Positions 2,845-39,301 of a stretch of 64,000 nt of DNA are shown one piece after another. The position numbers and the translations under genes were made by a program. The notes under the pieces were generated by a model. It had not been told where the DNA came from and made no database searches. It was given only the letters and a program-made list of their open reading frames with translations. Origin of the DNA: Synechococcus sp. LA31 (GTDB lineage Bacteria > Cyanobacteriota > Cyanobacteriia > PCC-6307 > Cyanobiaceae); assembly GCF_018502385.1 (NCBI RefSeq), contig NZ_CP075523.1, positions 930,001 to 994,000 on the forward strand, read 5' to 3'. The first letter of the stretch is position 1. Each line of letters opens with the position of its first letter.

Positions 2845-4548
2845 ATGATGGGAGCAGCACCAGGGCCGAGCCCAATGCCAGCGCAAGCCACCACCAGCTT
2901 TGAAGCCTTCACGCAGCGGGTGGATTACTCGTTGCTGGAGTCACTTCGGCAAGATCCCCAAGCCACCACCGACGGCAACGATCACCAGCCTCGCCAGGTG
3001 TTCTCGGGCCACTACGTGCCGGTCACTCCCACCCCGCTGCCCGAGCCTGAATATGTCGCCCACAGCAGCAGTCTGTTCGCCGAGCTCGGCCTGAGCGACG
3101 ACCTGGCCCATGACGAGGCCTTCCAACGCCTGTTTTCAGGTGACAGCACGGCTGCGTCTGGACCCATGCGGCCCTACGGCTGGGCTACCGGTTACGCCCT
3201 CTCGATTTATGGCACGGAATACATCCAACAGTGCCCGTTCCGCACCGGCAACGGCTATGGCGATGGACGCGCCATCTCGATCTTCGAGGGGGTGCTCAAC
3301 GAGCAGCGGTGGGAAATGCAGCTCAAGGGCGGAGGGCCAACGCCCTATTGCCGAGGCGCCGATGGCCGTGCTGTGTTGCGCTCCAGCGTGCGTGAGTTCC
3401 TGGCGCAGGAGCTGATGCAGGCCCTGGGAGTGCCGACCTCCCGCTCACTCACGCTCTATATGTCGCGGGCCGAGGGAGTGATGCGGCCTTGGTACAGCGA
3501 AGGATCCCGCTCCTTTGATCCCGATGTGATGGTGAGCAACCCCGCGGCGATCACCACACGGGTGGCGCCGTCGTTTCTGCGGGTAGGCCAGCTGGAGCTG
3601 TTTGCGCGCCGGACCAGAAGCAACGCCCATGCCGGTGCGAAGCGCGAACTGCAGATGATCGTTGAGCATCTGATCGAGCGAAACTACCGATCCGAGATCA
3701 GTGCCGCACTGCCCTTCACTGACCAGGTGCTGGAGCTGGCACGCCTCTTTCGCGGCCGGCTCACATCGTTGGTGGCCCACTGGATGCGCGTGGGCTACTG
3801 CCAGGGCAACTTCAACAGCGATAACTGCGCCGCTGGCGGCTACACGCTCGACTATGGCCCCTTCGGCTTCTGCGAGCTGTTTGATCCACGCTTCCAGCCG
3901 TGGACCGGTGGTGGCGAACACTTCTGCTTCTTCAACCAGCCAGCGGCAGCAGAAGTGAATTACGGGATGTTCTGGCGATCGCTGCAAACGCTGCTGGAAA
4001 GCAACAGCGATGCCCTCGAGCAACTCAATGCCATCAAGGATCACTTTGCTGGGGCGATGGCTGAGGAGCTGGAAACGATGTGGAGCAGCAAGCTCGGGCT
4101 TCGCAGTTACGACGCGGAGCTGATGCAGGAGCTGCTGCAACTGCTGGTGAGTTCCAGAGCTGATTACACGATCTTTTTCCGGCGGCTCTCAACCATTCCC
4201 CAGAGCGTGGATGATCTTAAAACCAGCTTTTATCTACCGAGCTCCGAAGAGCTGGATCAGCGGTGGCAGGCCTGGCTGCAACGCTGGCGCCAGCAAATCA
4301 CCAACCCAGCGGAAACAGCGGCGGCCATGCAGCGTGTCAATCCAGCGGTCACCTGGCGTGAATGGATGATTGCTCCGGCATACGAACAAGCAGCCGAAGG
4401 TAACTTCAGCCTGATCCGCGAATTGCAGACACTATTCCGCGATCCCTACAACACCCCAGCAGCTGACCTAGCAACCAAATACGACCGTTTGAAGCCGAGG
4501 GAATTTTTTAACGCCGGTGGGGTGTCACATTACAGCTGTTCCTCATGA
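2845..4548 (+). CDS. selO: Protein adenylyltransferase SelO (YdiU) family
   Basis: About 567 aa. SelO is a kinase-fold pseudokinase that transfers AMP to Ser/Thr/Tyr of target proteins and is linked to redox stress. Visible family motifs are QLKGGGPTPY with the nucleotide-contacting Lys, RAVLRSSVREFLAQE, and the metal/catalytic segments NSDN and DYGPFGF. The usual HGVxNTDN block appears as YCQGNFNSDNC, a variant that keeps the Asp and Asn. I chose the ATG at 2845; an in-frame GTG at 2776 would add 23 non-conserved residues and an ATG at 2878 is also possible. Confidence 0.9.
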   Translation: MMGAAPGPSPMPAQATTSFEAFTQRVDYSLLESLRQDPQATTDGNDHQPRQVFSGHYVPVTPTPLPEPEYVAHSSSLFAELGLSDDLAHDEAFQRLFSGDSTAASGPMRPYGWATGYALSIYGTEYIQQCPFRTGNGYGDGRAISIFEGVLNEQRWEMQLKGGGPTPYCRGADGRAVLRSSVREFLAQELMQALGVPTSRSLTLYMSRAEGVMRPWYSEGSRSFDPDVMVSNPAAITTRVAPSFLRVGQLELFARRTRSNAHAGAKRELQMIVEHLIERNYRSEISAALPFTDQVLELARLFRGRLTSLVAHWMRVGYCQGNFNSDNCAAGGYTLDYGPFGFCELFDPRFQPWTGGGEHFCFFNQPAAAEVNYGMFWRSLQTLLESNSDALEQLNAIKDHFAGAMAEELETMWSSKLGLRSYDAELMQELLQLLVSSRADYTIFFRRLSTIPQSVDDLKTSFYLPSSEELDQRWQAWLQRWRQQITNPAETAAAMQRVNPAVTWREWMIAPAYEQAAEGNFSLIRELQTLFRDPYNTPAADLATKYDRLKPREFFNAGGVSHYSCSS

Positions 4549-35518: not shown

Positions 35519-36208
35519 ATGGGACGGTTCAACGAGGTGCTGCGGGCGCTCAACAACCTCAAACTGCTGGCCGCCATCGGCCGCAGCGGCGGCGACCTGG
35601 CCAGCATCGCTGACCTGGTGGACAGCTTCATCGACAGCCCCCAGATGGCCGATTGCATCCGCCGCTTCCGCGCCACCCCCGGCGGTGCTGAGTTGATGGA
35701 TCAGCGCTATCCGCCCCTGCAGCCCGACATCGCGCGGCTCAGCCAACTACCCAGCGGCAGCCTCGGGGAGCGCTACGCACGCCTGATCACCAGCCTCGGC
35801 TACGACCCGGAGTTCTTCCGCCCGCGGCCCACCGACAGCGAAGCCCAATGGCTCACCCAGCGCATCGCCACCACCCACGACATCCATCACGTGGTGTGCG
35901 GGTTCGGCACGGAGCGCCAGGGTGAAAACGGCGTGCTGGCTGTGACCGCCGCCCAGATCGGCTTCCCGGCCTACGTGTTGCTCACCAGCGCTGGGCAACT
36001 GGCCAGCTTTCGGTTCCAAATCGAGCGCTTCGAGGCCATCAGTGATGCCGTCTGCCACGGCCAAGCCATCGCCCGCCAGGCCGCCTGCCTGGCGGCCGCC
36101 CGTTGGGAAGAGGGCTGGGAGAAACCCGTGAGCCAGTGGCGCAGCGAGCTGGGCATTCGCGATCCAGCCGATGCGAAGGCCTATGGCCTTGCCGCCCAGC
36201 TGCCATGA
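35519..36208 (+). CDS. Coq4-like protein
   Basis: 229 aa from ATG 35519. THDIHHVVCGFGTERQGE carries the HDxxH...E zinc motif of the Coq4 family (ubiquinone biosynthesis scaffold/decarboxylase). Other helical parts (YDPEFFRPRPTDSEAQWL) also fit. Cyanobacteria make plastoquinone, not ubiquinone, so its substrate here is open. Its stop overlaps the ATG of the next gene (ATGA). Confidence 0.85.
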   Translation: MGRFNEVLRALNNLKLLAAIGRSGGDLASIADLVDSFIDSPQMADCIRRFRATPGGAELMDQRYPPLQPDIARLSQLPSGSLGERYARLITSLGYDPEFFRPRPTDSEAQWLTQRIATTHDIHHVVCGFGTERQGENGVLAVTAAQIGFPAYVLLTSAGQLASFRFQIERFEAISDAVCHGQAIARQAACLAAARWEEGWEKPVSQWRSELGIRDPADAKAYGLAAQLP

Positions 36209-37200
36209 AGCTGCCCCAACGCTGGACCGCCCAACCCGCCAGCCTCGGCCTCACCCAGGGCTACCGCCATTTCCAGCTGCTGGGGGAGCAGGGCAAAGGG
36301 GTTGAGCGTGCCGCCCGGCTGGAGGCGGTGCTCGAGCGCAGCTGCCGCCTGCTGATCCCCCTGCGCCAGCTGCGCGATCGGGGCCTCTGGCAGCCTGGCT
36401 GGCAATCGTTGAGCCGCCCGGCCGCCATGCAGATCATCCCCGCCATCGACCTGCTCGACGGCCACTGCGTGCGCCTGCACCAGGGCGACTACGACCAGGT
36501 GACCCGCTTCAACAATGACCCCGTGGCCCAGGCGCTCGACTGGCAACGCCAGGGGGCCCAGCGGCTGCACCTGGTGGATCTCGATGGAGCCAAAACCGGC
36601 CAACCGGTGAACGATCAGGCGGTGAAGGCGATCACCGCAGCGCTCTCCATCCCGGTGCAACTCGGTGGAGGTGTGCGCAGCGCCGAGCGAGCCGAAGAGC
36701 TGTTGGCCTGCGGCCTCGACCGGGTGATCCTCGGCACCGTGGCGATCGAGAAGCCCGAGCTGGTGAAGGAGCTGGCAGCGCGGCACCTCGGCAAGGTGGT
36801 GGTGGGCATCGACGCCAAGGACGGCCTGGTGGCCACCCGCGGCTGGATTGAAACCAGCACGGTGAAGGCCACCGAGCTGGCCAAAAGCTTCGAGGGCTGC
36901 GGCGTGGCGGCGATCATCAGCACCGACATCGCCACCGATGGAACCCTGGCTGGTCCGAACCTGGAAGCCCTGCGGGCCATGGCGGAAGCCAGCTCGATTC
37001 CGGTGATTGCCTCAGGAGGCATCGGCAGGCTCGAAGACATCCTGTCGCTGCTCTCGATTGCACCCCTCGGCGTGGAAGGGGTGATCGTGGGCCGAGCCCT
37101 CTATGACGGCGCGGTGGATCTGGCCGAAGCGCTTGAAGCAATTGGTCCGGAACGCTTACAAGACGCACCCACTTCGCCTACGGGTTCTATAACGGTTTAA
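36205..37200 (+). CDS. hisA: TIGR02450-type Trp-rich domain fused in frame to HisA
   Basis: 331 aa. Residues 1-73 (MKLPQRWTAQPASLGLTQGY ... RDRGLWQPGWQSL) are a full TIGR02450 small Trp-rich protein; residues 75-331 are complete HisA (MQIIPAIDLLDGHCVRLHQG with catalytic Asp8 and second Asp in GIDAKDGLVATRGW), the ProFAR isomerase of histidine synthesis. No stop separates them and the internal ATG at 36427 has no ribosome site. The first ATG overlaps the Coq4 stop. Whether cells make one or two proteins is open. Confidence 0.92.
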   Translation: MKLPQRWTAQPASLGLTQGYRHFQLLGEQGKGVERAARLEAVLERSCRLLIPLRQLRDRGLWQPGWQSLSRPAAMQIIPAIDLLDGHCVRLHQGDYDQVTRFNNDPVAQALDWQRQGAQRLHLVDLDGAKTGQPVNDQAVKAITAALSIPVQLGGGVRSAERAEELLACGLDRVILGTVAIEKPELVKELAARHLGKVVVGIDAKDGLVATRGWIETSTVKATELAKSFEGCGVAAIISTDIATDGTLAGPNLEALRAMAEASSIPVIASGGIGRLEDILSLLSIAPLGVEGVIVGRALYDGAVDLAEALEAIGPERLQDAPTSPTGSITV

Positions 37201-37216
37201 GCAACACACGCCTGTC

Positions 37217-37642
37217 TTGGCGGCGACAACCACGATTGAGTTAGGCCTTGACGGTGCGATCGCGCGCTGCCGCGATCTCGGCATGCGCTTGTCGCGCCAG
37301 CGTCGCATGGTGCTTGAGCTGCTCTGGGACGTGAAAGATCACCTCAGCGCCCGCGACATTTTCGAGAAGCTCAATGCCCGTGGCCGCAACATCGGCCACA
37401 CCTCGGTGTATCAGAACCTCGAGGCCCTGCAGAGCGCCGGGGTAATCGAATGCCTCGATCGAGCCAGTGGCCGGCTCTACGGCTATCGCAGCGATCCCCA
37501 CAGCCACATCACCTGCCTCAAAACCGGCGCAATTCAGGATCTGGATGTGGAGCTTCCCCCTGAGCTACTCCAGCGCATCGAGGAGCACACCGGCTACGCA
37601 ATCGAGAGCTACACCCTCCATCTGAGCGGGCGCCCGCGCTGA
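37217..37642 (+). CDS. Fur-family transcriptional regulator, atypical metal site
   Basis: 141 aa from TTG 37217. Winged-helix part (MRLSRQRRMVLELLWDVKDH, NIGHTSVYQNLEALQSAGVI) is clearly Fur/PerR/Zur. In the dimerisation domain the usual HHDH/CxxC reads DPHSHITCLKTG, so the first CxxC is C-x-x-T and there is no C-terminal CxxC pair. The structural zinc site is therefore missing, which separates it from classical Fur. Targets unknown; peroxide or metal sensing is a family-based guess. Confidence 0.88.
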   Translation: MAATTTIELGLDGAIARCRDLGMRLSRQRRMVLELLWDVKDHLSARDIFEKLNARGRNIGHTSVYQNLEALQSAGVIECLDRASGRLYGYRSDPHSHITCLKTGAIQDLDVELPPELLQRIEEHTGYAIESYTLHLSGRPR

Positions 37643-37699
37643 GCTGGAGAAGCCTGGCCAGGCCCGTTAACGTGCGCCAAATTGCATCACCTGGCGCAC

Positions 37700-39301
37700 G
37701 TGCCTGAGGCCAAGGCCGCACCCCAACTGCTGATCCTGGCCGAGCCATTGCTTCGCGAAGGTCTGATCCGCCTGCTCGAGCCCCAGCACCGCATCGCCAC
37801 CCAGCCTGAGCAGTTCCAAGGCCGCCTTGGTTTGGTGATCTGGAGCTGCAGCGCAGACCTGCCGCTGGCCAACCTGCAAGGCGAACTCGAGCAACTGCAG
37901 GAGCGTTGGCAACCGGCACCGATCCTGCTGCTGCTCCCGGGACAAACTCCATACACCAGCGAAGATCTGCTGCGCTTGCCCTGCGACGGCGTGCTGCAGC
38001 AAGCCGAACCCGAAGAGATTCCAGCGGCGGTGGCCACGCTGCTCAGCGGCGGCCGGGTGTTTGAGCTCCGTCCGCTCAGCGCCTCGCTGCCCGCACCAGA
38101 GCCCATCGGATTCGGCCAGTGGCTCTTGCGCAGTGGCCTCAGCCAGATCCAGGCCGAACAGAAGCGCTGCCGCTTCTGGCTGGAGCAAAACCCCGGCGGC
38201 CTCAGCAGGCTGTTCCTGCTGGGACGGCTCAACGAACTCGCAGCGGCCCGCCGGTTGTTGCTCTGGTTGTGGGGCCCCATCTGCATGGCCCTCGTTGAAG
38301 CCAGCCCGCCGGCTGCACCACCACAAAGCACCCATCTCGCCATCACCCTGCGTCAGCGCACGGCCGAAGGGGTATGGCACGCGATCCAGGCGCGACTCAC
38401 CGCTGCCATCGATTCTGGTGTCACCAACCAGAGCGGCCAGCTGCTGGCCCTTGAGGGCCTCACAGCAGTGCATCGCCGCGATCTGCTTCTGGCGCTGATC
38501 AGCCAGCTCGATCTCCTGGTGATCCGCCTCCGCCATGAACAGCTGCGGGGTGAGGCCCTGGAAGAGCGCTGGCTGCAACAGCAGCCCGAACTGCGACGAT
38601 TGTCTTTGTGCGCCATGGCTGGCGATTACGTGCAATTGCCGCAGCAGGGAGGCTTGCTGCCGGTGGCTGAAAGCTTGAGCAGCGCCTGCCAGCTCAGCGG
38701 CTTCGACCCCGACTTACCAGCGGCGCTGCCGATGTTGGCAGCCCTGGTGCAGGCGCAACCTCTGTTGGTGGATGGCCGGCTGCTTGCGCCGGATGAACCC
38801 CAAGCTCTGCTCCATCTCGAGAGGCTGATCAGCAACTGGCTGATTCGCAGCGCCGAGCTGATCAGCGCCGAGGTTCTCAGCTGCTGCAGCAGCTGGCCAG
38901 AGCTACGCCGCTACCTGCTCAGACCTGATCTCCTAGCCACCCGCAATCTCGAGCGACTTCGCAATCAGCTCAATTCCCAGCAACGCTGGGGCAGCCTGTT
39001 TGAACGGCCAGTTCAGCTCTATGAAAGCCGCCGGCTGCTCTACAGCTTCACCGATGGTGCGATCACACCACTGCTGCTCACCGAGCCCCGTGATCAGGAG
39101 CTCCGCCAGCTGAGCTGGAGCCAGCAGCTGATCACCCTCAGCCTCGAAGCCCGCGATGCCCTGGCACCTCAAGTGCAGAGCTTTGTGAGCCGACTCGGGG
39201 ATCTGGTGGTGGTCGTACTCACGCAGGTGATCGGCCGTGCCATCGGTCTGATTGGGCGGGGCATCCTGCAGGGCTTGGGCCGTTCGGTGAGTCGCGGCTG
39301 A
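37700..39301 (+). CDS. DUF3685 (Ycf55-like) protein
   Basis: 533 aa from GTG 37700 (TTG 37682 also possible). The first 120 residues resemble a degenerate response-regulator receiver fold (LLILAEPLLREGLIRLLE, PILLLLPGQTPYTSEDLL) lacking the phospho-acceptor pattern. The long C-terminal part is Leu-rich and helical (WLEQNPGGLSRLFLLGRLNELAAARRLL), as in DUF3685/Ycf55 of cyanobacteria and red-algal plastids. Function unknown. Confidence 0.85.
   Translation: MPEAKAAPQLLILAEPLLREGLIRLLEPQHRIATQPEQFQGRLGLVIWSCSADLPLANLQGELEQLQERWQPAPILLLLPGQTPYTSEDLLRLPCDGVLQQAEPEEIPAAVATLLSGGRVFELRPLSASLPAPEPIGFGQWLLRSGLSQIQAEQKRCRFWLEQNPGGLSRLFLLGRLNELAAARRLLLWLWGPICMALVEASPPAAPPQSTHLAITLRQRTAEGVWHAIQARLTAAIDSGVTNQSGQLLALEGLTAVHRRDLLLALISQLDLLVIRLRHEQLRGEALEERWLQQQPELRRLSLCAMAGDYVQLPQQGGLLPVAESLSSACQLSGFDPDLPAALPMLAALVQAQPLLVDGRLLAPDEPQALLHLERLISNWLIRSAELISAEVLSCCSSWPELRRYLLRPDLLATRNLERLRNQLNSQQRWGSLFERPVQLYESRRLLYSFTDGAITPLLLTEPRDQELRQLSWSQQLITLSLEARDALAPQVQSFVSRLGDLVVVVLTQVIGRAIGLIGRGILQGLGRSVSRG

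Follow-up and report, generated by a model that had tools for sequence, protein, structure and literature searches.

The question raised by this locus is whether a small tryptophan-rich protein, TIGR02450, and the histidine enzyme HisA are truly encoded by one gene and, if so, whether that gene makes one protein or two. Within the window (the 64,000-nt stretch of Synechococcus sp. LA31 DNA analyzed here), positions 36205-37200 translate as a single, stop-free open frame of 331 aa. In profile searches, residues 6-67 match PF09493 (DUF2389) at 50.3 bits (cut-off 25), and residues 5-67 match TIGR02450 at 40.2 bits (cut-off 36.85; the domain alone scores 44.6). Residues 76-304 match PF00977 at 279 bits, and the HisA equivalog model TIGR00007 aligns to residues 77-308 at 262.7 bits (cut-off 228.95), using positions 1-230 of its 231. 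The junction reads W66-QSLSRPAA-M75QIIPAID, and the HisA part is a complete enzyme, residues 75-331, beginning at Met75. The original prediction of a TIGR02450 domain in frame with HisA, and with it the attachment of a domain of unknown function to this enzyme, is borne out: both domains lie above their cut-offs in one open frame.

The genome is complete, in one contig of 2.75 Mb. No second copy of TIGR02450/DUF2389 was found in it, and no second HisA; the next match to the latter is a HisF-like paralogue, 35% identical. In an alignment of 32 fused rows, D82 and D203, presumably the catalytic aspartates of HisA, are invariant in all 32, as are H22, W62, G65, and W66, among other residues, in the TIGR02450 domain. 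A PriA-like double function (HisA/TrpF) was considered and rejected: the genome has a separate TrpF family gene (92 bits; cut-off 22.7), so its HisA need not carry out the TrpF reaction, and the score to TIGR01919 is 178.9, below the cut-off of 306.45.

Features of the fusion gene and its neighbors (positions in the window)
Feature	Position	Strand	Evidence
Coq4-like gene, upstream of the fusion	35519..36208	+	PF05019, 69.4 bits
TIGR02450/DUF2389 domain, residues 1-67; predicted small five-stranded Tudor/SH3-like barrel	36205..36405	+	both curated cut-offs exceeded; AF2
Interdomain linker, residues 68-74 (SLSRPAA), seven residues	36406..36426	+	variable length in relatives; near-neutral dN/dS
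HisA Met75 ATG, probable internal translation start	36427..36429	+	ATG conservation; weak mRNA folding; Leu in two solved relatives
hisA, phosphoribosylformimino-AICAR-phosphate isomerase, complete	36427..37200	+	PF00977, TIGR00007; sole HisA of the genome
Fur-family regulator, downstream of the fusion; start codon uncertain	37217..37642	+	PF01475, 71.9 bits

The TGA of the upstream gene overlaps the first ATG of the fusion as ATGA, an arrangement that suggests that translation of the two may be coupled. Coq4 is a name from the ubiquinone pathway; ubiquinone synthesis is not known from cyanobacteria. Two genes downstream of the fusion (37682-39301) is a DUF3685 protein (223.9 bits).

The joined form is fixed in the genus of the window and present in seven further genera. 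In the window's genus (g1), 23 of 25 genomes have it, in stop-free open frames of 332-536 aa including HisA; of the two that do not, one is 62% complete, with no HisA found (G002), and the other has only an end piece of HisA, at a contig edge (G004). At family level the fusion occurs in 53 of 400 genomes, spread over eight genera: 23 in g1, 12 in g68, 7 in g53, 3 each in g6 and g58, 2 each in g46 and g74, and 1 in g82. This count comprises 53 rows in 52 genomes plus a g68 genome (G222) split over two contigs, which was counted as fused because its N-terminal half stays in frame across the junction, up to where the contig stops. Among 80 near-relative loci, from records including Vulcanococcus limneticus, other Vulcanococcus, Cyanobium, and Synechococcus, 30 are fused (L064-L092, with L092 cut by its contig start, and L143), one has a remnant (L102), and 49 are unfused. 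The carriers are a group of mostly freshwater picocyanobacteria, with the culturable strains Vulcanococcus limneticus LL and Cyanobium usitatum Tous among them. Across the class, DUF2389 is found in 113 of 126 genomes and is fused in just one of the 126, the window's own; the other carriers have it in separate frames of 71-185 aa; here it is continuous with HisA. The description of TIGR02450 as normally a separate gene is thus accurate for most cyanobacteria.

That the fusion gene is real and maintained is close to certain, and by its distribution it is of long standing, not recent. The best explanation, with a probability of roughly 0.6, is a genuine, long-maintained fusion gene with two products. 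The 331-residue fusion would be started at 36205 by ribosomes finishing the overlapping Coq4-like gene, and an ordinary, 257-residue HisA would be started at the retained internal ATG at 36427. From the general structure of TIM barrels, the extra domain would be carried on the barrel's N-terminal (stability) face and lie clear of the HisA active site. Because the domain joins before the first strand, enzyme activity is expected to be intact in both products, with catalysis retained in the fusion and in free HisA alike. The domain itself would be a tether or a regulator on part of the HisA pool, a role that is a guess.

The evidence for an internal start consists of computed hints from related sequences, not proof. 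The first codon of HisA is ATG in all of 36 distinct fused genes, although the adjoining linker drifts. The internal ATG had been said to lack a ribosome site; this is true of Shine-Dalgarno pairing at or below -6 kcal/mol (0 of 36 fused genes) but uninformative, since the unfused hisA starts of relatives are equally without it (0 of 49). The mRNA around Met75 is unusually unfolded, beyond what the protein sequence demands. In 40-nt windows, folding energy averages -5.5 kcal/mol at the internal ATG, as compared with about -14 upstream, -10.1 in the less open stretch where the first domain begins, and -6.2 at the starts of unfused hisA genes. The internal ATG falls within the least-folded 3.8% (median) of its own gene. 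Folding there is weaker than in synonymous-codon shuffles in 34 of the 36 genes (mean z 0.93; negative in L021 and L080), while the corresponding controls gave mean z values of -0.11 (43 other in-frame ATGs) and -0.01 (216 random codons). Over 312 aligned columns in 18 representatives, the highest mean z values are those of columns 77, 76, 74, and 75. When two subsets are ranked separately, other columns stand higher: column 75 comes 6th of 316 among 9 Vulcanococcus rows and 16th of 311 among 10 other fused rows. The signal has to be weighed against the relatedness of these sequences, since in the pairs compared within Vulcanococcus only 24-49% of four-fold sites differ. Toward the 3′ end of the gene, columns 318-324 equal column 75 in rank in the Vulcanococcus rows; folding at these residues (about 37156-37176), again weaker than in synonymous shuffles, may have to do with the beginning of the Fur-family gene that comes next.

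With the Met75 ATG kept in 36 of 36 genes and the mRNA around it unfolded, it seems probable that the gene makes free HisA besides the fusion. The best-surviving alternative, appreciably less likely, is that the fusion is the only product. Met75 could then be kept for its packing where the first HisA strand begins; the aligned residue is Leu in two solved PriA-type relatives, so that Met at this position is not required by the fold in general. The open mRNA would be incidental or a relic of the unfused start, and could also be a by-product of codon mix, explanations that have to contend with its centering on the ATG and its excess over the shuffles in so many of the genes. The missing Shine-Dalgarno pairing fits a single product, except that unfused hisA starts lack it as well, and purifying selection on both domains (below) is consistent with it.

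The states found in relatives bear on where the fusion came from. In seven of the eight genera (g1, g46, g53, g58, g68, g74, and g82), all 50 carriers of DUF2389 have it fused to HisA, and the domain there is either fused or absent. Nine of nine fused control genomes have DUF2389 only as the fusion. Elsewhere HisA does without the domain: of 30 unfused near-relative genomes tested, 29 have no DUF2389 at all. In the exception, L109, DUF2389 lies some 0.7 kb ahead of hisA with an opposite-strand gene in between (3008-4020 of that locus for the whole arrangement), which may represent either a split fusion or a pre-fusion state; its DUF2389 frame is 91 aa and ends in a stop. In Synechococcus sp. 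GFB01 (L102), a remnant of the DUF2389 end, RLWQPGWQPLRRS, stands in frame before the hisA ATG (3990-4060), and DUF2389 was not found in the genome; this looks like deletion of the domain after fusion. The eighth genus, g6, is mixed: 3 genomes have the fusion, and another 18 have a separate copy, which is just upstream of hisA in one and, as far as the contigs show, away from it in 17. This mixture counts against a simple story of a single fusion. A HisA tree (93 rows, quick method, 44 of 90 inner branches drawn open) requires 7 changes of fusion state; it is equally compatible with several fusion events and with a single one after which the domain was lost repeatedly.

Two distant families have six genomes between them in which DUF2389 and hisA are separate but neighboring genes, with order and strand as in the fusion (G046 and G428 in f11; G045, G454, G464, and G485 in f10), with stops between the two confirmed in G046 and G045. 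The first of these was considered as a second fusion, both halves falling in a 353-aa frame, and rejected: two in-frame stops, TGA TAG, lie between separate frames of 85 and 266 aa. The simplest route to the fusion would be for two such adjacent genes to lose the stop codon between them.

DUF2389 varies in number elsewhere. Synechococcus elongatus, a named control, carries it. Many genomes of three picocyanobacterial genera with small genomes (g10, g40, and g79; 0.9-2.0 Mb) have two or three copies, and some of their larger-genome relatives have none. In family f26 it is missing from 8 of 9 sampled genomes, G473 being the one that has it.

What the domain might do can be approached through its predicted structure. 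AF2, given 28 aligned sequences, predicts a small five-stranded barrel (mean pLDDT 87), and the same elements appear in the prediction for the full fusion (pLDDT 85). Its best structural matches include CarD (Z 5.9, rmsd 3.5, 64 residues aligned), the C-terminal domain of UvrD (Z 5.7, rmsd 2.3, 51 aligned), and the N-terminal domain of RapA (Z 5.4, rmsd 2.1, 49 aligned). No match reached Z 8 among 999 chains, and those below 8 may reflect a mere shared small-barrel shape; R67 DHFR, at Z 5.2, is about as good as the Tudor-like domains. Foldseek gave no match to the predicted domain at E ≤ 0.001, and no solved relative was found by sequence (best E 0.046), nor any sequence relation to the bacterial Tudor/SH3-like domains that bind RNA polymerase. 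The top five rows (CarD twice, UvrD, RapA, and PcrA/UvrD) are all Tudor-like domains from bacterial proteins whose work involves RNA polymerase, which is a lead rather than a finding.

A further reading would make TIGR02450 a functional partner of HisA. It would draw together the adjacent but separate genes in two distant families, the fusion in eight genera, and the two starts kept, which would give a set share of HisA a Tudor-like barrel as tether or regulator and might tie histidine synthesis to the machinery of transcription or translation. At present this seems unlikely.

The two domains and the linker between them differ in how they evolve. Over the 36 distinct fused genes, dN/dS is lowest in HisA (0.18), higher in the TIGR02450 domain (0.39), and highest in the linker (0.78); HisA and the domain are both under purifying selection. 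The linker, 6, 7, 8, 15, 25, or 31 codons long after the GW, evolves almost freely yet holds its frame. Its near neutrality, and the absence of TIGR02450 from many relatives that retain HisA, could be taken to mean that two functional proteins have had their frames joined by chance, a stop having been lost without effect, with HisA made mainly from the internal start and the fusion having no role of its own. Such a history predicts frequent stops and frame shifts in the linker; instead the frame is single in all 50 carriers of the seven genera, despite the six linker lengths, and chance joining is accordingly quite improbable.

The weakest alternative is that the open frame reflects faulty sequencing or assembly, or else a mutation of very recent date confined to this genome. 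It had in its favor only the earlier remark that the TTGAGC at the junction is one base from a TGA stop, and can be put aside: the open junction recurs in 53 of the 400 family genomes, and TTGAGC is not conserved, occurring in 12 of the 36 distinct fused genes. In the remaining 24, the 24 nt that precede the HisA ATG contain no stop triplet, whichever frame is read, and a small slip could not conceal one there. Nor do the relatives all have two separate genes, which had been named as grounds for rejecting the fusion: near relatives are either fused or mostly without TIGR02450.

The fusion gene can be set beside known arrangements. The domain is that of the standalone tryptophan-rich cyanobacterial protein, above both curated cut-offs. 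The HisA is as complete as an ordinary one (TIGR00007, PF00977) and equally single-copy; ordinary HisA lacks the 74-residue N-terminal extension with its predicted folded domain. Known his fusions (hisIE, hisNB, HIS7/hisHF, and HIS4/hisIED) and the elongation of hisA/hisF likewise join a his gene to a neighbor. The five his fusions listed in PMC1963479 join his functions or half-barrels together, and none there combines HisA with a non-histidine domain. A full-text search, which subscription papers mostly fall outside, found no literature on DUF2389, TIGR02450, or a cyanobacterial “Trp-rich protein”; among papers that mention hisA, fusion, and Cyanobium, judged by title and the start of the abstract, none concerned the present fusion. 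This is probably a new domain architecture for a histidine enzyme, a known kind of event, gene fusion onto such an enzyme, with a new partner domain and probably two products.

Its lasting covalent attachment to an enzyme that is well understood gives a concrete starting point for finding the function of TIGR02450. If two products are indeed made, the production of a tagged and an untagged form of an essential enzyme from one frame would be a naturally occurring example of internal initiation giving dual output. Close relatives include carriers of the fusion, genomes that lack the domain, and genomes that have it as a separate gene, which makes the effect of joining the two directly comparable among them.
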